From Bacteroidota bacterium (GTDB lineage: Bacteria; Bacteroidota; Bacteroidia; B-17B0; Aurantibacillaceae), in NCBI GenBank assembly GCA_021155905.1, contig JAJNBG010000015.1, positions 1-64,000 on the forward strand: 64,000 bases of DNA, given 5' to 3'. Below, piece after piece: positions 16,581-39,009 of this stretch (position 1 is the first letter of the stretch; every line of letters begins with the position of its first letter). A program made the translations under genes and the position numbers. The notes under the pieces were generated by a model. It worked only from the letters and a program-made list of their open reading frames with translations, was not told the DNA's origin and made no database searches.

Positions 16581-16620
16581 AGGTTCATTTTTTACGGTCA
16601 AATTTTAAACTTTTAGTACT

Positions 16621-16662
16621 AACTTTTTGTCTTGATACAAAAAGTTAACAAAAAGATCAAGG
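16621..16662 (-). repeat. pseudoknot-like intergenic element, reverse copy A
   Basis: The hairpin arms are AACTTTTTGT (16621-16630) and ACAAAAAGTT (16637-16646). The six-base loop CTTGAT (16631-16636) is complementary to ATCAAG (16656-16661) outside the hairpin. Read on the minus strand, this gives the same order as the forward copies. Confidence 0.6.
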
Positions 16663-16797
16663 CTTATTAAAATTTAGCTAAAATCTGCGCGGTATCAAGC
16701 TGATGCTTTGAAAGCGCTTCGCGAACAGCCCAAACCATCTGCGCGCAGACCCTCGCATTTGATACCGCTTGATTTTTTCTCTAAATTTTAATAGGCC
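16661..16797. repeat. 137-bp inverted-repeat element
   Basis: The terminal 17-bp arms are GGCTTATTAAAATTTAG (16661-16677) and CTAAATTTTAATAGGCC (16781-16797), with one mismatch. A second, inner pair is GCGGTATC (16689-16696) with GATACCGC (16761-16768). The interior is much GC-richer than its flanks. It has a MITE-like form, but no target duplication was recognised. Confidence 0.55.
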
Positions 16798-16918
16798 AAA
16801 AATACATAGTCGGATGTTCATCATGCTATTGTGAGATATCGAGGTGCTATAAAACTTCGGCTGGATATTTCATTTTGAGTCATGAGTGAATATAGCCTAA
16901 ATAAAACATTAGCGGTAT

Positions 16919-17021
16919 GGCGTTCGTTCTTGATTTTTTTGTTACTTTTTTCATCAAGGAAAAAAGTAAGATAAAGAAGCTTTTGGATACTCCCGATAGC
17001 TATCGGGATCGCAAAAGTATC
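16919..17021 (+). repeat. pseudoknot-like intergenic element, forward copy B, with nested palindrome
   Basis: The arms are TTACTTTTTT (16942-16951) and AAAAAAGTAA (16960-16969). The loop holds ATCAAG (16953-16958), complementary to CTTGAT (16929-16934) upstream. The attached tail GCTTTTGGATAC...GCAAAAGTATC is shared with the copy at 34477, but here it is interrupted by CCCGATAGCTATCGGG (16992-17007). Confidence 0.6.
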
Positions 17022-17051
17022 AAAGAGATAAAAATCTGTATCTTTAAATTC

Positions 17052-18497
17052 ATGCTTGACCACGTTAAACATATCACAAATCGTTTTGTGTTTCCTGTTC
17101 TCACAGGAACACTAATATTATATGTGATTGCACGTGGTTGCATGGTAGACATCACCGATGACGAAGCCTGGTCGTTTTTTAATGTGAAGAATTTCTGGTA
17201 CGTGGAAACACTCTGCACTGGAAACACGCACTGGTTTAATTTCGCTGCTATTAAAGCTGCAATCCTTTTGGGTTGCGAAAGAACCTGGCAGATCCGTTGG
17301 TTCAGTATGTTATCCGGGATTGGTTTTATTTATGTCGTGTATGTATGGCTCAGAACCATAAAAGTGTTTTATTTAAAATGTTTTGCCTTTTGTTTCCTAT
17401 TGCTGAATCCTTATTTGATCGAGTACTTGTCACTGGCACGGGGTTACACAACCGCCTTGTTTTTTCTGGCACTGAGTCTTTTGTTTTTAATGAGGGCGCA
17501 AAACGCCAAGGAGCGGCGTTATTTATTTTTAGCATTGCTGTTCGCGGGATTAAGCGCTGTCGCCAATTTTAATTTTCTCTATTTTTTTGCAGCTTTTTGC
17601 CTGGTTTATTTTTATGAATGTTATTTTAAAAATGGTTTGGGATTTTTAAAGCAAAAGCAATTTTACACCGACTTTGTTTTTTCAATTTGTACCCTGGCCA
17701 TTGTTTTAGTGGCTTTCCGCTTTATTGTGATCTGTTCCAATGACATTGCCGCGCATGGTGGAAGGGAGCTGGTTCCGGCCATATTTTCCAGTTTCATTGA
17801 TACGTTGTTGTACCGCAATTTCTCACTTTCTCAAAATGTCGTTATTGTTTCGGCCTATGTTCTTCTTGTTTTGATACTCTTTGCCATTGGGTTTGGGATG
17901 CTAAAATACAACACTCACCAAAATAGGTTGTATTTATATGCAAGCTGGATACTTGCCCTCATGCTCTTATTTTGTGTGATCAATAAATGGTGCTTTAATG
18001 TGCTGTATCCCAATGACAGGACCACTTTGATGTTTTACCCTTTAATAGCGATTGTACTGGTTGGTTTGCTGCATCACATCTTCACCTATTTTTTGTTTGA
18101 AAGAATCCTGATCTGTCTGTTGGCAGGATTTTTATTTTTTAATTTCATAAAGAGCATCAACGTGGATACCGGTTATGATCATCCCTATTGCAAAGACACT
18201 GAACGGTACTTCAAAGATCTCAAAAAGCTGAACGCAAAAAATATCGGGATGTCTGTTGAATTTTACTGTGTATTCTATAAATATTACCAGGTAACCGATC
18301 CTGTACTCAAAGGTGAATCCATCAATACCCTGGGCGTTTATAGCCGCTGGATCAAAGAAAGCCCTTTAACAGATTTTGATTACATAGTATTACTTCCCGG
18401 AAGCACCCTAAGCTGGTATAGGAATAGTTCTGTGAAACTGGAGCTGGTTCATTTTTATCCCGATACCAAAGTATCCGTTTTCAGAGTTGTTAAGTAG
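17052..18497 (+). CDS. GT-C-like multi-pass membrane protein, copy 1
   Basis: A 481-residue protein with roughly ten or more hydrophobic helices. After the first helix comes an acidic pair in ITDDEAWSFF, then ETLCTGNTHWFNF, then another helix, as expected for membrane glycosyltransferases of the GT39/ArnT type that use lipid-phosphate sugars. The C-terminal 90 residues are soluble (YFKDLKKLNAKNIGMS). The open frame extends to 16917, but its first 45 codons are the repeat element, so the ATG at 17052 is the likely start. A paralogue follows at 18649 with the same motifs. Sugar donor and acceptor cannot be inferred. Confidence 0.72.
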   Translation: MLDHVKHITNRFVFPVLTGTLILYVIARGCMVDITDDEAWSFFNVKNFWYVETLCTGNTHWFNFAAIKAAILLGCERTWQIRWFSMLSGIGFIYVVYVWLRTIKVFYLKCFAFCFLLLNPYLIEYLSLARGYTTALFFLALSLLFLMRAQNAKERRYLFLALLFAGLSAVANFNFLYFFAAFCLVYFYECYFKNGLGFLKQKQFYTDFVFSICTLAIVLVAFRFIVICSNDIAAHGGRELVPAIFSSFIDTLLYRNFSLSQNVVIVSAYVLLVLILFAIGFGMLKYNTHQNRLYLYASWILALMLLFCVINKWCFNVLYPNDRTTLMFYPLIAIVLVGLLHHIFTYFLFERILICLLAGFLFFNFIKSINVDTGYDHPYCKDTERYFKDLKKLNAKNIGMSVEFYCVFYKYYQVTDPVLKGESINTLGVYSRWIKESPLTDFDYIVLLPGSTLSWYRNSSVKLELVHFYPDTKVSVFRVVK

Positions 18498-18504
18498 TAA
18501 ATAC

Positions 18505-18617
18505 ATTTAACCACATAGGTACATAGTCTTTGTCTTCCTGAGCGCAGCGACGCTCTATGGATTCTAACAATACCCATTTCGCTTTCCGGGACATCCTATG
18601 TCTCTATGTGGTTAAAT
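18505..18617. repeat. 113-bp inverted-repeat element between GT-C-like paralogues
   Basis: The 22-bp arms (18505-18526 and 18596-18617) read ATTTAACCACATAGGTACAT AG and its reverse complement with two mismatches. The inside carries GAGCGCAGCGACGCTC. It lies in the 151-bp gap between the paired membrane-protein genes. It resembles TTTAACCACATAGA-type dispersed repeats I recall in other Bacteroidota. Confidence 0.5.
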
Positions 18618-18648
18618 CACCATTCAATACTTTTTGTATATTTATTAA

Positions 18649-20103
18649 ATGCAAAGCATCAAAAAACAAATCCTCACTAACTCCATCTTCTTTTTGTTGG
18701 TGTACGCGTTGATGTTTTATGTGGTGCTCCGGGCTGTCAGTATGGTCATGACCCATGACGAAGCTTATTCCTTTTACAATGCGAAACATTTCTGGTGGGT
18801 AGAAACTCTTTGTACCGGTAACACACATTGGTTCAATTTCCTGGCTATGAAGACCTGCATACTGTTTGGTTTGGAAAAAGCCAGCCAGCTGCGTTGGTTC
18901 AGTTTATTGTCCTCCGGTGTTTTTTTAACGGTCATTTATTTCTGGCTCAAAGACATCAAAGAATTGCCTGTTAAGATGTTTGCTTTTTCGGTGGGTGTAT
19001 TGAATCCTTTTTTAATTGATTATCTATCCCTGGCCCGTGGTTATTCTACTGCCCTGATGTTTGAAGCTTTAAGCATTACCTGCTATTGCCTCGCACTGAA
19101 AAACGATAGACGTTCCACAGCAACTTTCTCCTTATTCTTTGCCGGCATGGCGGCCATTGCCAATTTTAATTTCTTTTATTTTTTTGCTGCTTTCTGTTTG
19201 ATCTATTTTTTCCGATTTCATTTCAAGCGTGACTTCTCGTTCTTAAAAAACAAATTGTTTTACGCGGAAAGTTTATTTGCATTAGGCATTACGGCTTTAG
19301 TCATCAAAGCGCTGCAGTTCATTACCACTTGCTCTAATGATATAGGAGCCTACGGAGGAGAAGACCTGGTGAGTGGTATTTTCATGGGTTTTGTGCATAC
19401 CCTGATTTATAGGCAATCTGGCAATGAACCTGTTCTTCGTGCAGCCGCTTATGGATTATGTATGATGGCGCTAATGGCTTGTGTGTATGGGATTCGAATG
19501 ATAAAGCAGCACCGCTGCTTATGGTATTCCTTTTCTTCAGGACTGTTATTGCTCATGTTGATTTTAACCCTGTTCACTAAATTTTGTTTTGGTGTGTTAT
19601 ATCCCACTTACCGAACCGCTCTGATGTTCTATCCTTTGATTGCACTTGTATTGGTAGGTTTTTTCAATGCCATATTATCTAATCAAAAGATCAAAAAAAT
19701 TACCTTGTATGGCTTCAGTTCTTTGTTGGCCCTGCACTTCATTCTGAACATGAGCCTTCGTAAAAGTTTCGACTACTGGCAACAGGCAGATACCAAAGCC
19801 TGCTTCATCTATCTTGACACTCTGCAAGCTAAAAAAGTGGGCATTACACCTGAGCTTTATGGTGTTTACCGCAACTACTATCAGTTAACGGATTGCTACG
19901 CATTCAAATTTGAAGGTAAAAGCATCAACACTGCATTTCCAAATGGATTGGATACTAACCAGGAGTTAAAGAATTTTCAATACCTGGTGTTGTTTCCTCC
20001 TTACAATTTAAGCTTTTATAAAAATAACCGGGTGAAGTTTGAAGGAGTGAACTATTATAAGAGCACGGGAACTTTGATAATAAAGGTTTTATCTGGACAA
20101 TAG
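18649..20103 (+). CDS. GT-C-like multi-pass membrane protein, copy 2
   Basis: A 484-residue protein, clearly paralogous to the one at 17052. It shares the MTHDEAYSFYNAKHFWWVE opening (acidic pair after helix 1), the ETLCTGNTHWFNF segment, the LNPFLIDYLSLARGYSTAL segment, NFNFFYFFAAFCLIYF and the YPTYRTALMFYPLIALVLVG segment. The soluble C-terminal tail is also shared (AKKVGITPELYGVYRNYYQLTD). The pair therefore arose by tandem duplication and then diverged substantially. A glycosyltransferase role is inferred from topology and the acidic motif only. An O-antigen-ligase-like or simple membrane-transferase role is also possible. Confidence 0.72.
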   Translation: MQSIKKQILTNSIFFLLVYALMFYVVLRAVSMVMTHDEAYSFYNAKHFWWVETLCTGNTHWFNFLAMKTCILFGLEKASQLRWFSLLSSGVFLTVIYFWLKDIKELPVKMFAFSVGVLNPFLIDYLSLARGYSTALMFEALSITCYCLALKNDRRSTATFSLFFAGMAAIANFNFFYFFAAFCLIYFFRFHFKRDFSFLKNKLFYAESLFALGITALVIKALQFITTCSNDIGAYGGEDLVSGIFMGFVHTLIYRQSGNEPVLRAAAYGLCMMALMACVYGIRMIKQHRCLWYSFSSGLLLLMLILTLFTKFCFGVLYPTYRTALMFYPLIALVLVGFFNAILSNQKIKKITLYGFSSLLALHFILNMSLRKSFDYWQQADTKACFIYLDTLQAKKVGITPELYGVYRNYYQLTDCYAFKFEGKSINTAFPNGLDTNQELKNFQYLVLFPPYNLSFYKNNRVKFEGVNYYKSTGTLIIKVLSGQ

Positions 20104-20285
20104 GATTGAGTCCAGGGAGAAAAACATTCTTTATACCTTAATGTCTACTAAATGAAAAATGGAGAAATCTTTTAATTTACTTTCACTGCGTCTGATTTAA
20201 CATTGTGTTACTATAAGAAACATACTTTAGTACATTATGGAGAGTTATTTAGTACATATAAATTAGACCCTGAGTTGTGAGCCCG

Positions 20286-20293
20286 TAACTTTG
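20286..20293 (+). promoter_or_regulatory. candidate -7 element of XRE gene 1
   Basis: TAACTTTG matches TAnnTTTG exactly and ends 4 nt before the ATG at 20298. The same box with the same spacing precedes the paralogue at 20864. Confidence 0.45.
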
Positions 20294-20297
20294 GTTG

Positions 20298-20663
20298 ATG
20301 GCAATTCATATCGGCAAGAGAATAAAAGAAGAGCTCTATAGAAAGAATATTTCTGTGAGTGACTTTGCTAAGAAAATCAACAAAAGCAGGAATGTTATCT
20401 ATAATATTTTTGAAAGAGTAAGTATTGATACTGAATTGCTTAATAAAATAGGTAAGACCCTGAACTGTGATTTTTTCTCTCTCTATTCAGCTCAAAAAGA
20501 GTTTGAAGCTAATTTCGTGAGGCATTTTCATGCCAACGGGCATAATGTCAACTACTACAATGACCAGTTAAATGCCGTTCAAAAACATAATGAGGTAATG
20601 GAAAATGAAATAGCCTATCTTAAGAAGATCATTGCTCTGATGGAAAGCCAAAAAGAGAAATAG
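20298..20663 (+). CDS. XRE-family DNA-binding protein with C-terminal coiled coil, copy 1
   Basis: A 121-residue protein with an XRE-type helix-turn-helix (about 1-60: RIKEELYRKNISVSDFAKK then SRNVIYNIFE) and a C-terminal coiled coil (about 85-120: QLNAVQKHNEVMENEIAYLK). It likely dimerises through the coil and binds operator DNA. A TTG codon at 20295 could extend it by one residue, but the ATG at 20298 matches the start of its paralogue (MAIHIGKRIKEEL). A partly conserved His-rich patch, HFHANGHNVNYY, sits between HTH and coil. The regulated genes are unknown; no partner toxin gene is adjacent. Confidence 0.75.
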   Translation: MAIHIGKRIKEELYRKNISVSDFAKKINKSRNVIYNIFERVSIDTELLNKIGKTLNCDFFSLYSAQKEFEANFVRHFHANGHNVNYYNDQLNAVQKHNEVMENEIAYLKKIIALMESQKEK

Positions 20664-20851
20664 ACGAATATTTTACATTAATTTAATATCCGCATCGCTT
20701 TTTCACGTTGAGAATGTTAATTTTTGGGAGAATATTTATCTTTTTATTAAATTTGCATTGCCAGGTTTTTTGTGACTAAGCGCAAAGTAATTTCGGGCAT
20801 ATTGAAAAGATATTTGTTACAGAAAAATTAAAAACATTGTAGGGAGGCAGT

Positions 20852-20859
20852 TAACTTTG
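20852..20859 (+). promoter_or_regulatory. candidate -7 element of XRE gene 2
   Basis: TAACTTTG, exact TAnnTTTG match, 4 nt before the ATG at 20864. The stretch AACTTTGGTT is shared with the first copy. AGGGAGG lies further upstream (20841-20847), before the box. Confidence 0.45.
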
Positions 20860-20863
20860 GTTA

Positions 20864-21244
20864 ATGGCAATTCATATCGGTAAAAGAATAAAAGAAGAAC
20901 TCAACCGGCAGAATATTTCAGTGAGCGATTTCGCAAAGAAAATCAACAGGAGTAGGAATGTAATTTACGATATCTTCGAAAGGGAAAGTATTGATACCGG
21001 TTTGTTGAATAAAATCGGCAAGATCCTGTGTTGCGATTTTTTTTCCCTGTATTCATCGCAAAAAGAATTCGCATCTGATGATGTTAAGCATTTTCATGCC
21101 AGCGGACATAATTTAAATTATTATTCAGAACAGATCGATGCGATTCAGAAACAGAATCACATATTGGAAAGTGAAATTATTTATCTCAAAAAGATAATTA
21201 CCTTAATGGAAGGCAAAAAAGAAAAAGTGAAAGTAAAAAAATAG
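20864..21244 (+). CDS. XRE-family DNA-binding protein with C-terminal coiled coil, copy 2
   Basis: A 126-residue paralogue of the preceding regulator, alignable end to end. The HTH (RIKEELNRQNISVSDFAKK, SRNVIYDIFE), the patch HFHASGHNLNYYSEQ and the coiled coil QIDAIQKQNHILESEIIYLK are all kept, and the tail is Lys-rich. The near-identical N-terminus (MAIHIGKRIKEEL) points to similar DNA targets, while the divergent coils could favour homodimers over heterodimers. The pair is separated by 200 bp with its own candidate promoter for each copy. A 16-bp palindrome (21306-21321) lies 60 bp downstream. Confidence 0.75.
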   Translation: MAIHIGKRIKEELNRQNISVSDFAKKINRSRNVIYDIFERESIDTGLLNKIGKILCCDFFSLYSSQKEFASDDVKHFHASGHNLNYYSEQIDAIQKQNHILESEIIYLKKIITLMEGKKEKVKVKK

Positions 21245-21814
21245 TTGTAATCCTGGATTTGTAAAAAGATTCACTTAATTAAGCTTCCGCTTCATATATA
21301 GATTCGTCAGGTTTACCTGACTTATATATAAATCCATTTGCAGTTCGTATTGATTAATCAGTTTTACGAACTTCACTTGCGTAATTTTCATCAAAGTATA
21401 CTTCCGCGAAGCGTTATCCACGAGGAAAAGGTTTACGATGTTTTTTGCTTCTCTTACAGTAGTCAGGTATTCGCCATGATAATATCCGTTTGGTCAAAAA
21501 GACATAATGAATTGAAGAAGGTAACGTTATTGCTATATTTTTTTTGGATTTATTTAAACTGATTGGATCATAGGTCTTCTTTTTGACCTAAGGATTGCTC
21601 TAAATACCTGTGCAAATTTAGATGGCCTTGTACCAAAGCATATAATTATTTGATAAGGTACTCTTTAAAATAACTAAAAGCATTTATTTTAAAAGACAAT
21701 GGTATCAGTATTTTCAATACTTTTTTAATTCTAACGATAAAATTTGCCGTCTTAACTAAAGTTGTCTCAGATTTTAATAAAGACGTTTAATTTTCCAATA
21801 CAAAAGACATTTTG
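21245..21814. other. intergenic region without a convincing gene
   Basis: About 570 bp. It contains the palindrome GTCAGGT-TT-ACCTGAC (21306-21321), a small hairpin TAGGTC/GACCTA (21571-21576 with 21585-21590), a 38-codon minus-strand frame (21391-21275, MKITQVKFVKLINQ start) and an unsupported 74-codon plus-strand frame overlapping it. Neither frame shows a recognisable domain or a good start context. Confidence 0.4.
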
Positions 21815-22018
21815 ATGCCGCGTTTACATAAAATAAGAGGTTTGTTTTTCCTGGAAATCAGCAAAAATATGACGTGTGTCCACCAGCATTTGATGTTAGA
21901 AAAGACAAGTGGTGAAACTATTTGCATGCATTGTGGCCGCACAATTTATATGCGTAGGAAGCCTGACAAATTATTGGGAGATGAATTCACAGGCAATACG
22001 AATTCATCCGATTCATAA
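21815..22018 (+). CDS. small zinc-ribbon-like protein
   Basis: A 67-residue frame from the ATG at 21815. An alternative start at Met19 gives MTCVHQHLMLEKTSGETICM. The pattern C-x-H-x-H followed by CMHCGR about 13 residues later looks like a compact zinc-binding site, and the tail is acidic and polar (GDEFTGNTNSSDS). No family is recognised. It is isolated among repeats and orphan frames, so it could be a remnant of a larger gene, but the Cys/His spacing argues for a real product. Confidence 0.4.
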   Translation: MPRLHKIRGLFFLEISKNMTCVHQHLMLEKTSGETICMHCGRTIYMRRKPDKLLGDEFTGNTNSSDS

Positions 22019-22396
22019 AAACGCCAACATCAATTACATATCGGCAGGCAAAACCCCACTATAAAACATCTACTGCATAGATAACGACCGGCAGTTCAGG
22101 ATCCTATGAATGTAGACGCCTACACCCTGAACTGCCGCCTTTCCGGTTGTGCCCCATAATTTGGACAGATTTGACTAATGCTTTTTATTAAGATTATGTC
22201 ATTAAGTAAGGGTATTTGCCATATTTAATGCAGGCCTATCTGATTTAAATATCACTACCACAATTGCTTAAATAGCAAAAAACTGCTTTTATATTGGTAC
22301 ACATATTTTTATTTATCTGGTATTTGTTCATTATTTTGTTACATATTTGTGTAACATTGCACTTCTTAAATTGGTCTACATTCGCCCTCTCTTTAA
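22019..22396. other. intergenic region with inverted repeat and IS-end-like segment
   Basis: About 380 bp with no gene. A perfect 12-bp inverted repeat CGGCAGTTCAGG/CCTGAACTGCCG (22089-22100 with 22126-22137) encloses a small TGTAG/CTACA hairpin. Just after it, GTGCCCCATAATTTGGACA (22148-22166) looks like an insertion-sequence terminal repeat, but no transposase frame follows. Confidence 0.4.
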
Positions 22397-22714
22397 ATGG
22401 ATAAAAACGACTTGAGTGTAATTTTTGGAAAGACCGCCATCTGGGACTTTTACATGAACAATGAGCATGTGGAAAGCCTCAGATATGATGCGCAAAATAA
22501 TTTCATTACTAACAATGGAAGCGCTTATAGTATTTCAAAAATTGACATATGTGTGGAATCAGGAGTACTCTCTTTCGAGAAGAAAGCGCCGGGTTCAAAG
22601 GCGGTAAAAGCAAGCCTTGTTTTTATTAAGGATAAATCCATGCTGGTGGGCTTTGAAGGAAGCAAACAGGTGAAGTATGTTAAAACCGGGAAGAAATCAT
22701 TCTCATGTTCTTAA
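22397..22714 (+). CDS. hypothetical protein, 105 residues
   Basis: A soluble protein of 105 residues with alternating hydrophobic and polar residues suggesting a beta-rich fold (WDFYMNNEHVESLRYDAQNN, ASLVFIKDKSMLVGFEGSKQ). There is no signal peptide, helix bundle or known motif. The frame opens at a proper ATG and codon use is like the neighbours, so it is probably real. It lies alone between the IS-end-like segment and the Mesh1-like gene, 14 bp before a decayed copy of the pseudoknot-like repeat. Function is unknown. Confidence 0.5.
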   Translation: MDKNDLSVIFGKTAIWDFYMNNEHVESLRYDAQNNFITNNGSAYSISKIDICVESGVLSFEKKAPGSKAVKASLVFIKDKSMLVGFEGSKQVKYVKTGKKSFSCS

Positions 22715-22727
22715 ATGGTTTTTTTAT

Positions 22728-22753
22728 TTTACTTTTTTCACTAAAAAAGTAAA
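22728..22753 (-). repeat. pseudoknot-like element, decayed reverse copy
   Basis: The arms TTTACTTTTTT (22728-22738) and AAAAAAGTAAA (22743-22753) keep the hairpin, but the loop is only CACT. The outside partner has become AGTCAAAACGCAACTC, which has lost the AAG of the intact copies. Both halves of the second pairing are gone together. Confidence 0.45.
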
Positions 22754-22789
22754 TAAAATCTAAGTCAAAACGCAACTCATTGAATCAGC

Positions 22790-23377
22790 TCACTTTTGTT
22801 GCTTTTTAACCGTACGTTTCTTTTTTTCTGCTAATGATTCAATCGCGCCATTTACAAGTGCCCAGGCTTCATTATACAATTCTTTATTTCCTTTGTCCAA
22901 TTTTTTGAGATTAGTTCTGCATTCGTATAAAAAAACTCTGGCAAAGTCCGGATCATGATTTACGATTTCGATTGAATTGTCAATAATGTCCGCGTATTTA
23001 ATCGTTTGCGAGTCAGGACTTGTGTTCTCGAGCCGTGCGAGTTCATTAGCTTTTCTTGCACGTCTGTTTAGTTTTGGATAATCTTTTTTAATAAAAACGT
23101 CCGTCAGGTCAATCACCATATCTAAAGTCCGATGCGCCATGTCATCCGGCATAACAGATTTTAGAAAGTCACCCAGTTCATTTTTTTGTACAGGAGTATC
23201 CTCCAACACATCATGAAGCAGTGCTGCAGATAATATGCAGATATCATTAGTGAAACGTCTGCAGGTTTTCATCACCCGAATAGGGTGGACGATATAGCGT
23301 TCCGGTGTATATTTTCTCATCTGTTCGCCATGGGCGTTGTCAGCGTATTCTGTAATTTTATCAAGCAGATCTTCCAT
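22790..23377 (-). CDS. HD-domain hydrolase resembling Mesh1/SpoT alarmone hydrolases
   Basis: A 195-residue protein with the HD pattern of RelA/SpoT-type hydrolases: AHGEQMRKYTPERYIVHP (His16, Arg21-Lys22, His31), ALLHDVLEDT (His55-Asp56, Glu59-Asp60), and later IKYADIIDN, equivalent to the conserved Asp/Asn segment. These residues bind Mn and the (p)ppGpp 3' pyrophosphate in Mesh1 and SpoT. There is no synthetase, TGS or ACT domain, and the length matches stand-alone Mesh1-type small alarmone hydrolases. NADPH phosphatase activity, known for Mesh1, is an alternative. The C-terminus is Lys-rich. It is monocistronic in the accessory stretch. Confidence 0.72.
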   Translation of the reverse strand: MEDLLDKITEYADNAHGEQMRKYTPERYIVHPIRVMKTCRRFTNDICILSAALLHDVLEDTPVQKNELGDFLKSVMPDDMAHRTLDMVIDLTDVFIKKDYPKLNRRARKANELARLENTSPDSQTIKYADIIDNSIEIVNHDPDFARVFLYECRTNLKKLDKGNKELYNEAWALVNGAIESLAEKKKRTVKKQQK

Positions 23378-23586
23378 TTTACCCGATACATTTTTTCAAT
23401 AATACTATCGCTTTTTCGAACATGAGAATAGTTTCGATAACATGACTTTATTCATAGCCCGAATTTTATCAGTTAAACTCCAGGCTCTTTGATTTAGTTG
23501 TTATTGACAAAAAGACCCGTTCTGATACAATAAAAATATTATACATTTTCCTTGAATTGTGCAAGGCCCGAAGAGCTATGATTTGA

Positions 23587-23594
23587 TACATTTG
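23587..23594 (+). promoter_or_regulatory. candidate -7 element of small lipoprotein gene
   Basis: TACATTTG is an exact TAnnTTTG match ending 18 nt before the ATG at 23613. No -33 element stands out. Confidence 0.35.
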
Positions 23595-23612
23595 CTTGAA
23601 TTAAAAAAAACT

Positions 23613-23768
23613 ATGAAGACGATTACTCTATTCTCATTTTTGGCCGCTTTGTTAGCAATATCATGCACAGGAACTGATAATTCCGGTAACAACCATCGCA
23701 CCGTCCCTGATAAAGGGCCTTATCAATATCGAAACGATTCTGCAGCAACGGATTCAACATCTCATTAA
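23613..23768 (+). CDS. small lipoprotein, 51 residues
   Basis: A 51-residue protein with a signal peptide (MKTITLFSFLAALL) and a lipobox AISC (lipidated Cys17), followed by a short polar tail rich in Asp, Asn, Ser and Thr. Its mature part is only about 35 residues, so it is a membrane-tethered peptide of unknown role. The frame is open upstream to 23559, but the ATG at 23613, preceded by an A-run, gives the proper signal peptide. Similar tiny lipoproteins are common in Bacteroidota. Confidence 0.6.
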   Translation: MKTITLFSFLAALLAISCTGTDNSGNNHRTVPDKGPYQYRNDSAATDSTSH

Positions 23769-24051
23769 GGAGTCATCACCTGTGAGCGTTGATTAAATTG
23801 GACTGGGTTGCCCTATTGCCATTAGTCCGTTCCCTTACCTTCCTTGTATGTCATAATGCCTTTGCCAATATTATAGCAGTGTAATTGACAGGCATATTGT
23901 TTTTATTGACAGTATCTTAGTAGAAAAGCTTTTTACGAAAGCACCTGTCTGCCTGACCAAAATCACCTCCAAATCTTATGAACAGCCTGTTTAAAAATCA
24001 GACGGTGAAAAGCCCTTTTTTTCGTAAATTAGCACCTCTAAAAACAAGCAC

Positions 24052-26928: not shown

Positions 26929-26946
26929 CTAAAAATAGTTTTGATT

Positions 26947-29160: not shown

Positions 29161-29178
29161 CGAATGCCATGATAATGC
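29138..29178. repeat. hairpin spanning the stop codon of the SpoIIE gene
   Basis: GCATTATCGGCATTCG (29138-29153) pairs with CGAATGCC-AT-GATAATGC (29161-29178) with a two-base bulge and the loop TATTTAA that contains the stop codon. No T-run follows, so it is not a typical terminator. Confidence 0.55.
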
Positions 29179-29190
29179 TATCCGACCTCC

Positions 29191-29223
29191 GGCGTGATAT
29201 GTATTATCGGGATTCGCATTTAA
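29191..29223 (+). pseudogene. echo of a SpoIIE-gene 3' end, downstream copy
   Basis: In frame, the segment reads GVICIIGIRI and TAA, against DDVCIIGIRI and TAA at the end of the gene just upstream. The eight shared residues are coded with three synonymous third-base differences (tgc/tgt, ggc/ggg, cgt/cgc). That would fit the tail of a separate paralogue lost by deletion; a palindromic repeat is an alternative. Confidence 0.4.
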
Positions 29224-29391
29224 TAGAGATATAATGATTTTCCCGGGCGAGTTCTATAGAAATTAAAACGTAAGGTTTTTCTCCGTTCGTCGGATTTAAC
29301 AATTTTCCCAGACTAATTTTATAAACTGTTTTTGCGCACATCTTTTAAAAAAGGATCAAAAAAATTGCTGAATATTCTGTTTCTTTGTATT

Positions 29392-30216: not shown

Positions 30217-30217
30217 G

Positions 30218-30225
30218 TAATTTTG
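30218..30225 (+). promoter_or_regulatory. candidate -7 element of MFS gene
   Basis: TAATTTTG, exact TAnnTTTG match, 13 nt before the MFS ATG and just past the stop of the MBL gene, so the MFS gene may have its own promoter. Confidence 0.4.
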
Positions 30226-30238
30226 CACCTTATCAGTT

Positions 30239-31459: not shown

Positions 31460-31531
31460 CATTTCACAGGTTAACTGCTTTAAGTTTTGATAGTGAATTT
31501 GTAAAATAAATGCTATTTTCAGGCATCATTT

Positions 31532-33568
31532 ATGAGAACTGGACTTGTTATAATTTTGATACTGCTTTCCTGCTTTTTAAAAGCTCAAAATTCTGTAAGC
31601 TTATCTTCGGACAGTTTAATACGCAGGGCTAAGTTGATCTACCAGAATGATCCCGTTCAGGGATTTAATTATTCAAAACAAGCCATTGAAAAAGCAAGAC
31701 AGGAGGGATCAGAGCTCAATAGCGGTATGGCTTACGAAATGCTGGCTATTTCGTTTGATTACCTTGGGCAGCTGGATTCGGCCCTGTTGTATTTTGACCA
31801 TTCCATTGAACTTTTAAAAAACCAAAAAAATAAAATTTTTATTGCAAGGGTGTATACCTCCAAAGCGAACAGTCTTTTTCTGTTAAACAAAAATAAGGAA
31901 GCGCTCATGTATTACACGAAGAGTTACGAGATCTTTAAAGCACTGAAAAGCCAGAAAGACGAAACTTCTTCTCTCATGGGCATCGGCAATGTTTATTCAA
32001 ACATGAAATCCTATGACCTTTCGCTCAAATACTATGATCAGGCTTTGGCCTTTTATGTAGAGACGAAAGATTCCGCTTTCATTTCCTATGTACTCACTAA
32101 TATTTCAGAAGTGTATGCAGCCATGAAAGTTTTTGACAAGGAGCTGGAATATCAGAGAAGGTCATTAAGCATCAAGGAGAAATTGGGGGATGATTATGGC
32201 CTGGTATATTCCTACACGAATATGGCAGGATTAATGTCCAGGGAAAACAAAAAAGATTCCGCGCTGTATTTTGCTGATAAAGCCATTGCAACATCTGTTA
32301 AAATCAATAACCAGGAATTTCTTGCATCTTCCTTCCAGGCTTTGGCGGATGTGCATTACCATTTCAACCAATACAAGGAGGCGGTCCGTTATTACCAGCA
32401 GGCCCTCGACATGGCCAGGAAGTTGAAGAATTCAAAAACAGAATCTTCCGTATTAAAATTACTGGCTGATGCTCAAATCAAATCAGGTGATCATCTCGGG
32501 GGATCTCAATCGCTTTTACAATTCATTGCCATTAACGACAGTGTAAATAGTGTGGAGATGCAAAGATCGTTTAATGAATTACAGACGCAGTATGAAACCG
32601 ACAAGAAGGAGAAAGAAATTTCGCTATTGAATGAAAGAGATAAGAAACGTCAGGTAGTCATTTATTCCATCATTGCATTAAGTTTATTATTAGGACTTTT
32701 ATCTTTTGTATTATTTAACCGCTTTCGCTTGAAAAAACGAACGGCTAATGAATTGGAAATTAGAAATACAGAAATCTCAAAACAAAAAGATATCATTGAA
32801 GAAAAGCAAAAGGAAATAACAGACAGTATTCATTACGCCAAGCGCATTCAGAATACATTATTGGCTCACAAAGAATTTGTCAATCGGTTTATTCCCGAAA
32901 ACTTTATCCTGTTTAAGCCTAAAGACATTGTCAGCGGAGATTTTTACTGGGCCACAGAATACCAGGATAAGTTTTACCTGGCGGTGTGCGACAGTACGGG
33001 ACATGGCGTTCCCGGCGCTTTCATGAGCTTATTAAACATCGGGTTCCTGAGTGAAGCTATTAAGGAGAAGAACATTACAAGGCCAAATGAGATCTTTGAT
33101 TATGTGAGGCAACGGTTAATCGATAGTATCGGAAATGAAGGTCAGAAAGACGGGATGGATGCAATCCTCATTTGCATTGATTTGGCGCCGAAGGAGAATC
33201 AGCCAACAAGAACAATTCAATATGCCGCTGCAAATAATGAACCGATTTTAGTTAACGGCAACCAGCTCATTGAATTAACCAAAGATAAAATGCCGGTCGG
33301 GCATGGAGAAAGAAAAGAGAATTTTATTTTGCATACCATTCACTACACGCCCGGAGACGTGTTGTATCTTTACACGGATGGATTCGCTGATCAGTTTGGC
33401 GGACCAAAAGGAAAAAAATTCAAATACAAGTCGCTGAACAATTACTTACTATCGGTTTCAAAAATGTCCATGGAAGAGCAACACTCCAAACTGAATCACC
33501 TGTTTGACGAATGGAAAGGAAACCTGGAACAGGTAGATGATGTCTGTATTATTGGAATTAAATTATAA
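31532..33568 (+). CDS. TPR sensor with SpoIIE-type PP2C phosphatase output, copy 2
   Basis: A 678-residue paralogue of the protein at 27208: signal peptide (1-18, ending LKAQ), TPR repeats (about 25-340), membrane helix (about 375-393), a coiled coil (EIRNTEISKQKDIIEEKQKE), and a SpoIIE/PP2C domain (about 440-678) with DIVSGDFYWATE, AVCDSTGHGVPGAFMS and DGMD. All metal-binding Asp segments are present, so it should be active. The C-terminus DDVCIIGIKL matches the other copy. The two genes, 2.4 kb apart, probably sense different stimuli through their divergent TPR parts and may share a target. Confidence 0.88.
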   Translation: MRTGLVIILILLSCFLKAQNSVSLSSDSLIRRAKLIYQNDPVQGFNYSKQAIEKARQEGSELNSGMAYEMLAISFDYLGQLDSALLYFDHSIELLKNQKNKIFIARVYTSKANSLFLLNKNKEALMYYTKSYEIFKALKSQKDETSSLMGIGNVYSNMKSYDLSLKYYDQALAFYVETKDSAFISYVLTNISEVYAAMKVFDKELEYQRRSLSIKEKLGDDYGLVYSYTNMAGLMSRENKKDSALYFADKAIATSVKINNQEFLASSFQALADVHYHFNQYKEAVRYYQQALDMARKLKNSKTESSVLKLLADAQIKSGDHLGGSQSLLQFIAINDSVNSVEMQRSFNELQTQYETDKKEKEISLLNERDKKRQVVIYSIIALSLLLGLLSFVLFNRFRLKKRTANELEIRNTEISKQKDIIEEKQKEITDSIHYAKRIQNTLLAHKEFVNRFIPENFILFKPKDIVSGDFYWATEYQDKFYLAVCDSTGHGVPGAFMSLLNIGFLSEAIKEKNITRPNEIFDYVRQRLIDSIGNEGQKDGMDAILICIDLAPKENQPTRTIQYAAANNEPILVNGNQLIELTKDKMPVGHGERKENFILHTIHYTPGDVLYLYTDGFADQFGGPKGKKFKYKSLNNYLLSVSKMSMEEQHSKLNHLFDEWKGNLEQVDDVCIIGIKL

Positions 33569-33588
33569 CATTTGTAAAAAGTTCAACA

Positions 33589-34092
33589 ATGCCTGAAGAA
33601 TACGTCATACTGGTGGATGAAAACGACAATGAAATGGGCGTGATGGAAAAAATGAAGGCGCACCGTGAAGGTGTATTGCACCGTGCTTTTTCCGTTTTTA
33701 TTTTTAATGATAAGGAAGAATTATTGCTGCAGCAAAGGGCGTCAAACAAATACCACAGCGCTCGTCTCTGGACCAATACCTGCTGTTCTCATCCACGTCC
33801 TAATGAAACGATTAAAGACGCTGCTCATCGCCGTTTATTTGAAGAGATGGGCATAAGCTGCGACCTGACCATTAAAACCAATTTTATTTATAAATCTCCT
33901 TTCGAAAATGGTTTAACCGAACACGAATTGGATTATGTTCTGATTGGAAAGACAAATAAGAATCCGCAGATCAATATTGAGGAAGTGAAAAATTTCAAAT
34001 GGATGTCTATCTCGGATATTAAAAAGCAGTTGCAGTCTAATCCCGAAAATTACACGATCTGGTTCAAAATTGCGATGGAGAAACTGTTTTAA
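33589..34092 (+). CDS. idi: isopentenyl-diphosphate delta-isomerase, type 1
   Basis: Converts isopentenyl diphosphate to dimethylallyl diphosphate. The 167-residue protein is a Nudix-fold type 1 enzyme with HRAFSVFIFNDKEELLLQQR, TNTCCSHPRPNE (catalytic Cys in the CSHP context), RRLFEEMG (Nudix-like metal-binding Glu) and ENGLTEHELDYV (catalytic Glu). The start ATG is 21 bp after the SpoIIE gene. Downstream is a 600-bp repeat region, so it ends this transcription unit. Confidence 0.95.
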   Translation: MPEEYVILVDENDNEMGVMEKMKAHREGVLHRAFSVFIFNDKEELLLQQRASNKYHSARLWTNTCCSHPRPNETIKDAAHRRLFEEMGISCDLTIKTNFIYKSPFENGLTEHELDYVLIGKTNKNPQINIEEVKNFKWMSISDIKKQLQSNPENYTIWFKIAMEKLF

Positions 34093-34104
34093 GTTTTTTT
34101 AAAA

Positions 34105-34132
34105 TGTCACTTCGAGCGGAGTCGAGAAGTGT
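34105..34132. repeat. short dispersed palindrome, copy 2
   Basis: TGTCACTTCGAGCGGAGTCG then AGAAGTGT. The CACTTC/AGAAGTG ends could pair. It is related to 16554-16580. Confidence 0.55.
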
Positions 34133-34166
34133 CTTTCGATTCGCCAACAATTCTCTTACTATTTGC

Positions 34167-34228
34167 TTACTTTTTTCCTTGACGAAAAAAGTAAAAAAAA
34201 AAGTCAAGAACGAACGCCAACTCCAATC
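34167..34228 (-). repeat. pseudoknot-like intergenic element, reverse copy C
   Basis: The arms are TTACTTTTTT (34167-34176) and AAAAAAGTAA (34185-34194). The loop contains CTTGAC (34178-34183), complementary to GTCAAG (34203-34208). The outer flank GAACGAACGCCAACTCC matches, in reverse, the flank of the copy at 38952. Confidence 0.6.
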
Positions 34229-34370
34229 TTTTTAGGGGCGCATAGCGCAAGAACCCCTAAAAAAATGTAGTTCACACTGTTCGTCCACGTCCCTGCGCCA
34301 TCTGGAGTTATGGCTTTGTCAATCTCTCGTGAGATATAGATCTCCAATAGCATAGCGCTAGCAACTCTCT

Positions 34371-34416
34371 CATACGTTGGTGATAGTGCGGCTGATTTTG
34401 GCGAAAGAGAGCGAAC
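34371..34416. repeat. dispersed repeat module, copy 1
   Basis: Starts CATACGTTGG and includes AGTGCGGCTGATTTTGGCGA. It matches 38860-38905 at 39 of 46 positions. On the minus strand both copies encode similar spurious peptides (SPKSAALSPTY, SPKPAALLPIY). Confidence 0.55.
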
Positions 34417-34476
34417 CGTCATTTTTCACTCCGTTTCCTGGGCAGCCCTGTGCGCGAAAAATGTCGAATGGTCTTT

Positions 34477-34555
34477 CGCCTTGAATTTTTGTTTCTTTTT
34501 GTTCAAGCAAAAAGAAAAGAGAAGTTTGCTTTTGGATACTTTTGCAAAAGTATCA
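34477..34555 (+). repeat. pseudoknot-like intergenic element, forward copy D
   Basis: The arms are TTTCTTTTTG (34492-34501) and CAAAAAGAAA (34508-34517). The loop TTCAAG (34502-34507) is complementary to CTTGAA (34480-34485). The tail carries the uninterrupted palindrome GATACTTTTGCAAAAGTATC. Confidence 0.6.
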
Positions 34556-34664
34556 AATCGAAAGTTTAGCGCTAAAGGTTTAAGTCAATATTCATTTTAA
34601 CAAAATATTTTTCAACCCCCTGTTTATCAGTAAATTAATAATTTCCATATTTCAGATAAATCCT

Positions 34665-34672
34665 TATTTTTG
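34665..34672 (+). promoter_or_regulatory. candidate -7 element of hppA
   Basis: TATTTTTG, exact TAnnTTTG match, 22 nt before the hppA ATG. No clear -33 TTG. Confidence 0.45.
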
Positions 34673-34694
34673 CACCCTTTAATTTATACAACAT

Positions 34695-37469
34695 ATGAAC
34701 GATTTAGTGATTTACATGATCCCGGTACTGGGAATCTTAGGTTTAGTGGTAATGGCAATCAAATCTGCCTGGGTTAGCAAGCAGGATGCCGGTGATAAGA
34801 ACATGCAGGAATTGGCGGGTTATATTGCCGATGGTGCGATGGCCTTCTTAAAAGCAGAATGGAAAGTATTAAGCATTTTCGTGGTTTTTGCAGCCGCTTT
34901 ATTAGCTTATTCCGGAACAATACATGAAGTTAACGGTAAAGAGATCCACTCCAGCTGGATTATTTCTATTGCCTTTATTATAGGAGCAGTTTTCTCTGCA
35001 ACAGCAGGATATATTGGTATGAAAGTAGCTACCAAAGCGAACGTCCGTACTACACAAGCTGCCCGTACAAGTTTAAAACAGGCTTTAAAAGTATCTTTTA
35101 CAGGTGGTACTGTAATGGGCTTAGGAGTTGCCGGTTTGGCAATCTTAGGTTTAGGTGGTTTATTCATTGTTTTCCTGGGGGTCTTTGGTGATTTAGGAGA
35201 AAATACAGTGAAAACAGCGATTGAAGTATTAACCGGTTTCTCTTTGGGAGCAGAGTCGATTGCATTATTTGCCCGTGTTGGTGGTGGTATTTATACCAAA
35301 GCAGCTGACGTTGGTGCTGACTTAGTTGGTAAAGTAGAAGCAGGTATTCCTGAAGATGACGTTCGTAACCCTGCAACTATTGCTGATAATGTAGGTGATA
35401 ACGTTGGTGACGTAGCTGGTATGGGCGCCGATTTATTCGGTTCTTATGTAGCCACCATTTTAGCGACTATGGTATTGGGTCAGGAAATCGATGCGTCGAA
35501 TGATGCATTCGGTGGTATGTCTCCTATCTTATTACCAATGGTAATTTGTGGTTTAGGTATTTTATTCTCAATCGTTGGTACATGGTTCGTAACCATTAAA
35601 GATGACAAATCAAATGTTCAGAACGCTTTGAATTTAGGAAACTGGGCATCTATGATCTTAACAGTGATTGCTTCTTACTTCATCGTAATGTATATGTTGC
35701 CTGCAACATTAAGCTTACGTGGTTATGAGTTCTCAAGTTTAAATGTATTCTTCGCGATTGTAGTTGGTACCATTGTAGGTGCAATTATGAGTATTGTAAC
35801 TGAGTATTACACTGCGATGGGTAAGGCTCCTGTTTTATCTATCATTCAACAATCTTCTACAGGTCATGCAACTAACATCATAGGTGGTTTATCAGTTGGT
35901 ATGAAATCTACTGTGATTCCTATCTTAACATTAGCAGGTGGTATCATGGCTTCTTATTATTTCGCAGGTTTATACGGTGTGGCTATTGCAGCTGCAGGTA
36001 TGATGGCAACTACAGCTATGCAATTAGCAATTGATGCATTTGGTCCAATTGCTGATAACGCGGGTGGTATTGCAGAAATGAGCCAGTTACCTCCTGAAGT
36101 TCGTGAGCGTACGGATAACCTGGATGCAGTTGGTAACACAACAGCAGCAACCGGAAAAGGTTTCGCCATCGCTTCAGCGGCTTTAACATCATTAGCTTTA
36201 TTTGCAGCTTTCGTAGGAATTGCAGGAATTGACGCGATTGATATTTACAAAGCACCGGTATTAGCTGGTTTATTTGTAGGTGGTATGATTCCATTCATTT
36301 TCTCTGCATTATGTATCCAGGCAGTTGGTAAAGCGGCTATGGACATGGTACAGGAAGTACGTCGCCAGTTCCGTGAAATTCCAGGTATCATGGAATACAA
36401 AGCAAAACCGGAATACGAAAAATGTGTGGCTATTTCTACCAAAGCATCTATCCGTGAAATGATGATGCCAGGTGCTATTGCTTTAATTACTCCTTTAATT
36501 GTCGGTTTCGTATTCGGACCGGAAGTATTAGGTGGTTTATTGGCAGGTGTAACTGTATCAGGTGTGTTAATGGGTATCTTCCAGTCTAACGCAGGTGGTG
36601 CATGGGATAACGCTAAAAAATCTTTTGAGAAAGGTGTATTGATCAACGGTGAAATGTTCTACAAAAAATCAGAACCGCACAAAGCATCAGTTACTGGTGA
36701 TACAGTTGGAGATCCGTTCAAAGATACTTCAGGGCCTTCTATGAACATTTTGATTAAATTAATGTCTATCGTGTCTTTGGTTATTGCTCCTTACATTGCT
36801 GTAGTTGGCGGAGAAGAAGCTTGCTGCACAAATGGTATGGTAACTGAAGAAGTAATTAAATGTAACATCAACGGACAGGAGTATACCTGCAACAGCAAAG
36901 CGCAATGCGATAGCATCATGAATGCTAACAAAAAAGACATTGCTGAGTTAAAAGGAATGTACGAAGTAGATGGATCTCACTCTTCGGTTGATTTCAGTAT
37001 CAAGCATATTGTAACCAATACGAAAGGTACAATGAATATTGATAGCGGTTATATTAACCTGGATAACGCGGGAACTAAAATCTTTATCCGTATGGATGCA
37101 AAATCCATGAACACGCAAAGTGCAGGACGTGATGAGCATTTATTAAGCGCTGATTTCTTCGACGCTGCTAAATTCCCTCACATCGTTTTCGAAGCGACTG
37201 AAGTTGTAAAAGATTCTACCAGCATGGATTATAGTTACATCGCTAAAGGCAAATTAACCATCAAAGGACTTACCAAAGAAACCAACATTCCATTCAATTT
37301 CGTAGGAGTTGAAATGAAAGACATGGGTGAGCATGGTAAATACAATGTAGGTGGTTTCGAAGGAAAAACTGTGATCAACCGTACTGATTTCCAAATTGGT
37401 AAATCAGGTGGATTAGGTGAAAACGTAACCATCAGCATTAACCTTGAGGTGATGCAGGAGGTTAAGTAA
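34695..37469 (+). CDS. hppA: ion-pumping membrane pyrophosphatase fused to a YceI-like domain
   Basis: A 924-residue fusion. Residues 1 to about 705 form a membrane pyrophosphatase that pumps Na+ or H+ using PPi. The PPi/Mg sites are visible in [18 protein letters not shown] and [18 protein letters not shown], with a third acidic motif in [11 protein letters not shown]. The sequence [10 protein letters not shown] has Ala484 where K+-independent enzymes have Lys, so it should be K+-dependent. A linker (about 706-755) contains a CC pair and three more Cys (IKCN, TCN, QCD). Residues 756-924 are a YceI-like lipocalin-type domain ([18 protein letters not shown]). Known topology puts the C-terminus outside, where YceI proteins act. 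No stop or frameshift separates the parts. Confidence 0.92.
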
Positions 37470-37490
37470 TTTCTTCTTTAAGATAATTAG

Positions 37491-37524
37491 AAAGCCTGTC
37501 TATGAATTAGACAGGCTTTTTTTA
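37491..37524 (+). terminator. intrinsic terminator after hppA
   Basis: A perfect 12-bp stem (37491-37502 with 37508-37519, core AGCCTGTCTA), TGAAT loop and a T-run. Confidence 0.9.
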
Positions 37525-37681
37525 TGAAAATAGGAATAGATAATCACCAAAGACCGCATCTGTTTGTAATGCGGACGGACACCAAAGTGATTATGGTAAA
37601 TGCCGTTTCGCACAAGTCATTTTCATTTGGCAAATGTCCAAAAAGCAGTTAGCTTTGTTAGTAGCATTAGGAAATCGAAAC

Positions 37682-38812
37682 ATGAAATACCTTTCTTCAA
37701 TAGTAGTAATCCTGTTTCTGTTTGGTTTCACAACAAGTACGGTCAATCCGGAAGAAAGATCCATCGAAGACATCACGGCGGACTTAGTGAAGGAAGTCGC
37801 TAAAGACAATATAGGTAGCCTGTCCATTTCTATATTAAAACATGACAGTATTACTTACTTCAGGTCGTACGGGAAAATAAATAAGTTCAATAAATTCATA
37901 CCGGACACTTCTACGTTGTTTAGAATTGCGTCTGTTTCCAAATCATTCGCGGCTGTGCTGATGTTGAAACTGATGGAAGAAGGCTATTTCAAATTGGATG
38001 ATCCCATCGAAAACTACCTGCCCGAAGTTAAATTACTCATCGGCTATTCGGATTCCACTAAAATAACCTTCAGGCAATTGGCAAGCCATACTGCCGGCAT
38101 TCAAAGAAACTCAAATCCGAATGGAGGACAGAGCGGTGCCACATCTGACTGGGAAAAGAAAACAGTATCATCCATTTCTCATACTAAATTTATTTTCAGG
38201 CCAAATACCAAAATGGTTTATTCAAACGTAGGCTATGCCATCCTTGGATTGGCCATGTCAAGAGCCGCCAATACTTCCTATATTAAATTAATGAGTGATA
38301 AAATATTTGTTCCTTTAAAAATGGACAATACGTTTTTCGATGTTCCGGAAAATAAATTGAACAAATTAGCAGACGGGACATGTGACTGCGGATTACTTAA
38401 CGGTAAAAACCGACGAGTGCCAAGAGAAGGACAAAAAGGATTGGGCTATGATGTACCGGGAGGAGGAATATTTACTACTTCCTCTGATCTTTCAAAATTA
38501 TTGGCGGTATTAATGGGAACATCCAAACAAAGAATAATTACAGAACAATCTCTTTTAGATATGCAAACTGGTGTCATGAAATACCCGGACGCTATCCGGC
38601 GAACGTTTAAAAATGTGAAGTATGGACTAGGCACTGTTGTTTACCATTTAGATAATGATATGACTGTTTTTGCTCATAGTGGATCTACACCTGGTTATTG
38701 GACAACGTACGCATATGACCCTGCAAAAAAAGTGGCTGTCATCATTATGCTTAATTATGACAAACATTTAGACAATGAAGGCACCGTCGTAAAAATATTA
38801 AATCAGTTGTGA
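37682..38812 (+). CDS. serine hydrolase of the class C beta-lactamase / DD-peptidase type
   Basis: A 376-residue exported protein: signal peptide (about 1-20), then a penicillin-binding-protein-like fold with the nucleophile motif SVSK (Ser84, Lys87), the Tyr-x-Asn motif YSN (180-182) and the third motif HSG (332-334). All three active-site motifs of the beta-lactamase/esterase/DD-peptidase group are present. The His in place of Lys in the KTG box is common in esterases and EstB-type hydrolases, so it is not necessarily a beta-lactamase. The frame is open to 37634, but the ATG at 37682 gives the clean signal peptide. Confidence 0.87.
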   Translation: MKYLSSIVVILFLFGFTTSTVNPEERSIEDITADLVKEVAKDNIGSLSISILKHDSITYFRSYGKINKFNKFIPDTSTLFRIASVSKSFAAVLMLKLMEEGYFKLDDPIENYLPEVKLLIGYSDSTKITFRQLASHTAGIQRNSNPNGGQSGATSDWEKKTVSSISHTKFIFRPNTKMVYSNVGYAILGLAMSRAANTSYIKLMSDKIFVPLKMDNTFFDVPENKLNKLADGTCDCGLLNGKNRRVPREGQKGLGYDVPGGGIFTTSSDLSKLLAVLMGTSKQRIITEQSLLDMQTGVMKYPDAIRRTFKNVKYGLGTVVYHLDNDMTVFAHSGSTPGYWTTYAYDPAKKVAVIIMLNYDKHLDNEGTVVKILNQL

Positions 38813-38859
38813 AGTGTTAAGTAAAAAAAAGGAGTGGCAGATTTCTTTATGCATCCCTG

Positions 38860-38905
38860 CATATATTGGTAATAGTGCGGCTGGTTTTGGCGAAACGGTG
38901 CGAAC
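38860..38905. repeat. dispersed repeat module, copy 2
   Basis: Starts CATATATTGG and includes AGTGCGGCTGGTTTTGGCGA. It matches 34371-34416 at 39 of 46 positions. It lies 43 bp before the flank of the forward pseudoknot-like copy at 38952. Confidence 0.55.
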
Positions 38906-38951
38906 TACAATTTTTTCGGCGGTATTGCGGAGGTTTTTCGAGTGAGAAAAA

Positions 38952-39009
38952 GATTGGAGTTGGCGTTTCGCCTTGACTTTTTGGTTCTTTTTCGTCAAGG
39001 AAAAAGAAC
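38952..39009 (+). repeat. pseudoknot-like intergenic element, forward copy E
   Basis: The flank GATTGGAGTTGGCG leads into CCTTGAC (38971-38977). The arms are GTTCTTTTTC (38984-38993) and GAAAAAGAAC (39000-39009). The loop GTCAAG (38994-38999) is complementary to CTTGAC (38972-38977). It ends 44 bp before the RsmH-like gene. Confidence 0.6.

Follow-up and report, generated by a model that had tools for sequence, protein, structure and literature searches.

A structured interspersed repeat of Bacteroidota with two overlapping, covarying helices at its ends: a possible REP-like mobile element

Repetitive extragenic palindromic (REP)-like repeats are usually attributed to REP-associated tyrosine transposases (RAYTs), which are Y1 HUH enzymes. 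The available part of PMC3733652 describes CGTC-tagged palindromes with stems of 8–9 bp, arranged mostly as head-to-head dimers, and its authors leave open whether RAYTs or other transposases mobilise them. Here we consider a repeat in a stretch of 64,000 nucleotides from a Bacteroidota bacterium (positions 1 to 64,000 of contig JAJNBG010000015.1, our contig C16), referred to as the window; the genome from which it comes, G000, measures 4.06 Mb in 67 contigs and is 93.9% complete. Five short structured copies lie in the window, and with a probability of roughly 0.5 they are the ends of a non-coding, REP-like interspersed mobile repeat that has spread through Bacteroidota and carries a foldback switch. 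A REP-like repeat as such is a known kind; what is new is the structure of the ends and the missing enzyme.

The sequence-only reading had placed five copies in the window. All five are present, within about ten bases of the borders that it gave, and the loop and partner hexamers and the arm pairs that it listed are correct in each. Every copy displays a double pairing: an upstream CTTGAx is complementary to the loop yTCAAG of an A/T hairpin, a pairing that we call S1, and the arms of that hairpin form S2. One further CTTGAN..NTCAAG site in the window, at 54311 and with a spacer of 6, lies within a called open reading frame (ORF) and lacks the design. Two features were absent from the earlier description. 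Four of the five copies pair up as the left and right ends of two head-to-head elements, and a third helix, P1, stands directly 5′ of TTGA, its last base being the C of CTTGA; in the source genome it is usually 9 bp long. The parts are as follows.

16620..16661, minus strand: element 1, left end; CTTGAT, then CTTTTTGT, then the hairpin TAACTTTTTGT / loop ATCAAG / ACAAAAAGTTA.
16661..16797, minus strand: element 1, left long hairpin, type IV; base helix of 16661–16677 with 16781–16797, last base the C of CTTGAT, 8 of 9 basal pairs.
16929..16969, plus strand: element 1, right end; CTTGAT, then TTTTTTG, then the hairpin TTACTTTTTTC / loop ATCAAG / GAAAAAAGTAA.
34167..34208, minus strand: element 2, left end; CTTGAC, then T8, then the hairpin TTACTTTTTTC / loop GTCAAG / GAAAAAAGTAA.
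34208..34286, minus strand: element 2, left long hairpin, type I; P1 arms 34208–34216 and 34278–34286, 7 of 9 pairs.
34400..34480, plus strand: element 2, right long hairpin, type II; P1 arms GGCGAAAGA at 34400–34408 and TCTTTCGCC at 34472–34480, 9 of 9 pairs.
34480..34517, plus strand: element 2, right end; CTTGAA, then TTTTTG, then the hairpin TTTCTTTTTG / loop TTCAAG / CAAAAAGAAA.
34530..34554, plus strand: outer tail hairpin TTTTGGATACTTTTGCAAAAGTATC, beyond the right end of element 2.
38889..38972, plus strand: single half-element, long hairpin; P1 arms GGCGAAACG at 38889–38897 and CGTTTCGCC at 38964–38972, 9 of 9 pairs.
38972..39009, plus strand: single half-element, end; CTTGAC, then TTTTTG, then the hairpin GTTCTTTTTC / loop GTCAAG / GAAAAAGAAC.

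For the right end of element 1 no good P1 was found, the best candidate having 5 of 9 pairs. Forms of the tail hairpin occur 3′ of many copies in the source genome, and none was seen by eye in the rows from other genomes. The repeat TGTCAYTTCGAGCG stands at 16554–16567 and 34105–34118, shortly before both complete elements.

The design extends well beyond the window. A tight pattern, CTTTTTNNTCAAGNAAAAAG, has 23 sites in the 4.06-Mb source genome against none for the reversed pattern, and it is found in 46 of 87 genomes of the family, the reversed control giving zero in each. The loose pattern CTTGAN{13,23}TCAAG is weak by itself (53 matches in the source genome, 41 in the control). Combined scans count at least 42 copies in the source genome, and they seem to cluster, with 14 in one contig of 81.5 kb (C6) and 7 in another of 71 kb (C50). 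A wide scan of the genome_contigs collection, in which TTTTTG, most of the S2 arms and TCAAG were fixed and the upstream hexamer, y and the closing and outermost S2 pairs were left free, returned at least 116 stretches holding at least 125 copies. All wide-scan figures given here, those on P1 and gene context included, hold among the matches listed. The 80 titles listed are nearly all Bacteroidota; by label, L213 is a Williamsia metagenome-assembled genome (MAG) and L220 is a Neomarinimicrobiota MAG, and both fall outside the phylum. Twenty-three stretches of viral_contigs match the tight pattern. A spread over other Bacteroidota, as the sequence-only reading had it, is supported by the wide scan and by the 46 family genomes, and the observation is confirmed as real and larger than first noted. 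That all copies are intergenic holds for the five of the window and not for the wide scan, where 7 of 125 fall inside an automatically called ORF (100–158 aa).

Since CTTGA and TCAAG are nearly invariant, support for S1 comes mainly from the pair x:y. CTTGA stands in register in 115 of the 125 wide-scan copies, and in all 115 x:y is a Watson–Crick pair (T:A 80, A:T 18, C:G 17). Of the other ten, four have CTTGA one base further up (L158, L173, L213, L251) and six have a different string or N. With CTTGA, TTTTTG and part of the arms fixed and the loop free, a scan of the 87 family genomes gave 126 copies, partly related within genomes (33 come from G061), of which 112 have a fully complementary loop; the remaining 14 comprise 9 G·T wobbles, 3 G·G, 1 C·A and 1 T·C. 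In the source genome, a selection on CTTGA and TCAAG, which leaves x and y free, gave 34 copies; 33 of them have a complementary x:y, and the exception, L025, has A/A. Other exceptions in that genome are a G·T (L035), a degraded copy (L036) and two copies broken beside inserted palindromes (L050, L051); L060 has a double change at one pair, next to a mismatch at x.

In S2, the closing pair is Watson–Crick in 118 of the 125 wide-scan copies (T-A 44, C-G 37, G-C 36, A-T 1) and the outer pair in 116, the rest being seven G-T, one T-G and one T-T; the pairs between these two were fixed by the search pattern. Among 41 distinct rows, x:y is a standard pair in all 41, once as U-G. Their covariation score is 0.236, against 0.060 (standard deviation 0.009) for shuffles and at most 0.049 for slid alignments, and none of 500 shuffles reaches the observed value; doubly changed cells number 65, where shuffles average 20.6. 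On two of the five measures the real rows are not clearly above the shuffles: they have 3 pairs changed on both sides (shuffles 3.0) and 14 further pair types (shuffles 12.5). The shuffle control leaves the relatedness of the copies in place. Within S1, strong covariation is seen at x:y only. Taken together, the scans and the shuffle test uphold the claim of two crossing, covarying pairings, with base pairing as the constraint. In 33 of the 125 copies the start or stop of an automatically called ORF lies under 60 nt past S2, and S2 is therefore probably the outer border of the element there.

P1 shows pairing with far freer letters. Among 39 copies of the source genome, 28 have 9 of 9 Watson–Crick pairs, in six different sequences, 6 have 8 of 9 and 5 have 7 or fewer, a count made with no shuffle control. 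Of 103 copies in the wide set, 29 pair at all 9 positions and 15 at 8 of them; when the best helix ending within 3 bases of the foot C is taken, 41 of 103 have at least 8 Watson–Crick pairs, against 7 of 103 with the last 12 nt exchanged among the copies. Eleven head-to-head pairs of the source genome were examined. In each, the P1 hairpins lie inside and the S2 hairpins outside, the distance from CTTGA to CTTGA is 268–408 bp, and two different P1 types are joined, as judged by eye, with the right half of element 1 degraded. Single copies are also present in this genome. Close pairs occur in a few wide-set loci, and L224 and L187 (labelled Mucilaginibacter) hold alternating arrays.

Short perfect palindromes are also found inside or beside the hairpins: CCCGATAGCTATCGGGA at 16992–17008 of the window and in L026, L051 and L052, and TCCGCCAGCTGGCGGA in L050. 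It looks as if palindromes had been inserted into palindromes. Separately, the long hairpin of some copies of types I, II and IV (L016, L017, L022, L023, L024, L027) contains a palindromic insert of about 55 bp, GGGCTGAGCG ... AGCGAAGAGCC, which also has variants.

How, then, would S1 and S2 coexist? The sequence-only reading saw in them the topology of an H-type pseudoknot. The crossing topology, with its covariation, is supported; a standing pseudoknot is doubtful, as no linker is left to cross a 6-bp S1 and the fold energies favour S2. S1 takes up the whole six-base loop, and the 3′ arm of S2 begins right after it; by structural reasoning, full S1 and full S2 should exclude each other, and an S1 of 3 bp might form alongside S2. 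A variant with TTTCTTTG arms, sought as a test of a base-triple model, was found in none of 395 genomes. Fold energies were calculated for the five ends in the window and for one common end. Without the 3′ arm of S2, the 5′ part folds as S1 or something close to it, at −1.0 to −4.1 kcal/mol, and the complete end prefers S2 (−5.6 to −10.6 kcal/mol as RNA, −6.4 to −8.3 as DNA). Once the arm is there, the advantage of S2 over S1 is 2.0–6.9 kcal/mol as RNA and 4.8–6.6 as DNA. The calculated energies would allow S1 to form first and S2 second. The single half-element (38880–39015) folds better than shuffles (z −3.1), and element 2 does so less clearly (z −2.1). With both sides free, G·T-type wobbles outnumber A·C mismatches at the outer S2 pair (8 against 0), not at the closing pair (1 against 2), and in P1 they stand at 10 against 5 among 36 mismatches, with 21 of other types. 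This excess of G·T is a modest hint that the strand as written is the one that folds.

We propose the following arrangement. A half-element would begin, at its 5′ end, with a long hairpin whose basal helix, P1, is almost unconstrained in sequence; CTTGAx would stand at the foot of this hairpin, followed by a T-rich stretch and then by the S2 hairpin with its yTCAAG loop. A complete element would be two half-elements of different P1 type, head to head. S1 and S2 may be successive states, S1 forming first as the strand emerges and then being displaced by S2. The displacement could hide or expose the hexamer, by analogy with the pairing between guide and cleavage site at IS200/IS605 and REP ends. 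An enzyme acting in trans would spread the element, presumably by reading the folded single strand.

At one locus a gain of the element can be seen. Beside an fkbp-like gene, compared across 20 loci of the genus, the full pair is present in the source genome only (L303); the nearest relative (L305) has a degraded, different element, and 18 of the 20 have none, 8 of which retain the same downstream gene. The element is thus a recent gain at this locus, the sole site with clear orthologues. At an rsmH-like gene the element is absent in six relatives, which is weak evidence because the upstream gene is not shared.

Several points weigh against a mobile element with a foldback switch. There is no replication-strand bias (positive GC skew at 57 of 112 copies), where a lagging-strand route of the IS200 kind would predict one. 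The orthologous gaps show gain without exact borders, and exact insertion or excision was not seen. No target-site duplication was found at the outer ends of 11 pairs, the longest direct repeat averaging 4.6 against 4.4 for mismatched pairs; this test, which bears also on a miniature inverted-repeat element of a DDE transposon, is weak because tail modules are present at many ends. Neither a mobilising enzyme nor, in 116 loci, a clear recurrent neighbour gene was found. In addition, 62 of 103 wide-set copies do not show a P1 of at least 8 pairs, and the switch is drawn from two-dimensional fold energies. As to an autonomous gene nearby, a candidate that we rejected, the largest cluster of neighbours is transporter-like (named by eye) and is represented at 6 of 116 loci, its distance from the element varying from one to the next. 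Three loci share a small protein, at −537, 7 and 32 nt.

The gene context of the copies resembles that of REPs. Convergent gaps hold 28 of 87 copies, against 66 of 386 in the control, and divergent gaps 10 of 87, against 93 of 386. The same enrichment and depletion would suit an element acting as RNA in cis, that is, a structure in the 3′-untranslated region or between cistrons that would shield mRNA ends, make RNA polymerase pause or serve as a protein-binding site; a head-to-head pair would then give each direction of transcription one sense copy at its 3′ end, and the excess of G·T wobbles points modestly the same way. However, the two orientations relative to same-direction neighbour genes are almost equally frequent (28 against 21), the hairpin is not followed by a T-run, and most relatives lack the element in the orthologous gap at the fkbp-like locus; we regard this explanation as unlikely. 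Nor do the copies look like intrinsic terminators: by the rows, the hairpin is A/T and not G+C-rich, and mostly purine-rich sequence without a T-run comes after it.

Complementarity might also be kept by mutation, through quasi-palindrome correction by template switching, and not by structural selection. The P1 arms of the source genome do change wholesale in step (GGCGAAAGA/TCTTTCGCC, GGCAATTCG/CGAATTGCC, GGCGAAACG/CGTTTCGCC, GAACGAAAA/TTTTCGTTC), and some of these changes sit on near-identical inner domains, so both arms changed together. Yet CTTGA, TCAAG and the T-rich linker stay constant while the arms drift, the overlapping S1 and S2 are both retained, and degraded copies exist that were left uncorrected. 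We think this quite unlikely.

A more conventional origin would be an atypical REP of a Bacteroidetes RAYT (TnpA-REP, Y1), for example of subclass 2.6, whose gene has been lost here. Y1 is commoner in family genomes with the element (35 of 46) than in those without it (22 of 41; Fisher P 0.04 before any correction, with genus or completeness as possible confounders), and because of this weak association we raised our estimate for such an origin slightly. It is quite unlikely all the same. The source genome, 93.9% complete, has no Y1 match (RAYT/IS200), Y1 is missing from 11 of the 46 element genomes, among them the two richest in copies, and the element is missing from the eight g8 genomes, which do have Y1. 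Over the 87 genomes, the number of copies does not correlate with that of Y1 (Spearman 0.13, P 0.22). Of 143 Y1 matches listed in relatives, 30 loci were examined and none carries the element; one (L102) has a CTTGA..TCAAG match without T-run or hairpin. Most of 20 RAYT-like genes of about 180–230 aa in related genomes (L124–L143) are flanked by palindromes of their own, which differ between locus groups. No shared GTAG-like guide tetranucleotide was seen by eye 5′ of the hairpin foot, and CTTGA sits 3′ of the foot.

Two other enzymes were tried as candidates and rejected. Reverse transcriptase (PF00078) is not matched in the source genome and is present in 20 of the 46 element genomes, with no significant association over the 87 (P 0.12); the genome richest in copies, G061, has one match. 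IS110 (PF01548) likewise has no match in the source genome and is present in 7 of the 46 (P 0.53).

Finally, a duplex-DNA site for a dimeric protein, with CTTGAx..yTCAAG as its inverted repeat and no single-stranded stage, would account for two nearly invariant half-sites spaced about 16–19 bases apart, but it is highly improbable, as x/y, the closing and outer S2 pairs and P1 are free in sequence yet complementary, none of which a protein reading duplex letters would need.

We return to the REP-like mobile repeat with a foldback switch. Here a strongly constrained repeat is wide in Bacteroidota, and no Y1 was found in one of its richest genomes; therefore, either another enzyme spreads the element or the host keeps it. 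It is possible, if doubtful, that this is a phylum-wide class of mobile structured repeats whose ends are recognised through base pairing (a basal helix plus a hexamer–loop switch, with exchangeable letters) by a transposase or nuclease of a kind new to REP-like elements. The overlapping helices allow simple single-base tests.

The sequence-only reading knew of no described function, and searches of an open-access library, supplements lying outside them, brought up no description of the element; the available parts of PMC6006769 (including section 25), PMC3733652, PMC12306157, PMC2864571 and PMC9723704 contain no description of it. Rfam gives no match above the gathering score over the element in the window and eight loci; at the L068 copy there is an overlapping Phe_leader match below threshold (31.9 bits, threshold 55, E 0.076).

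Flavo-1 (RF01705) has a match in the window at 7745–7825 on the minus strand. Like our element, it is a structured Bacteroidetes motif with a repeat-like scatter, and it exceeds threshold in the window and near one copy (L024); unlike it, it does not overlap the element itself. According to the available part of PMC9723704, Flavo-1 matches fall sense or antisense indifferently; Flavo-1 may therefore be another repeat and not an RNA gene.

H-type pseudoknots of the telomerase RNA type, in which loop 1 is U-rich, share the order S1, T-rich loop 1, S2, S1′, S2′ and an A-rich S2 strand. In our element, by contrast, loop 3 has zero length, and the full form should not be buildable at once. The CGTC-tagged palindromes resemble it in their stems of 8–9 bp and their head-to-head dimers, and differ in their terminal motif and loops; a loop-to-foot pairing is not described in the available part of PMC3733652. 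IS200/IS605 ends, as presented in the available part of PMC6006769, likewise have a subterminal hairpin and a short foot motif able to interact with a second short motif nearby. Our element departs from them in that the pairing is of six bases, the partner lies in a hairpin loop, the ends are inverted, no Y1 was found and there is no replication-strand bias.

The REP, REPIN and BIME repeats of RAYTs (TnpA-REP) share several features with our element: structured intergenic repeats, many copies per genome, no gene of their own, head-to-head dimers and few copies in divergent gaps. Our element differs from these in that no Y1 gene was found in the source genome or beside the element at the 30 loci examined, in carrying CTTGA at the 3′ foot where REP has a 5′ guide tetranucleotide, and in its extra terminal hairpin, the loop of which pairs with the foot hexamer.

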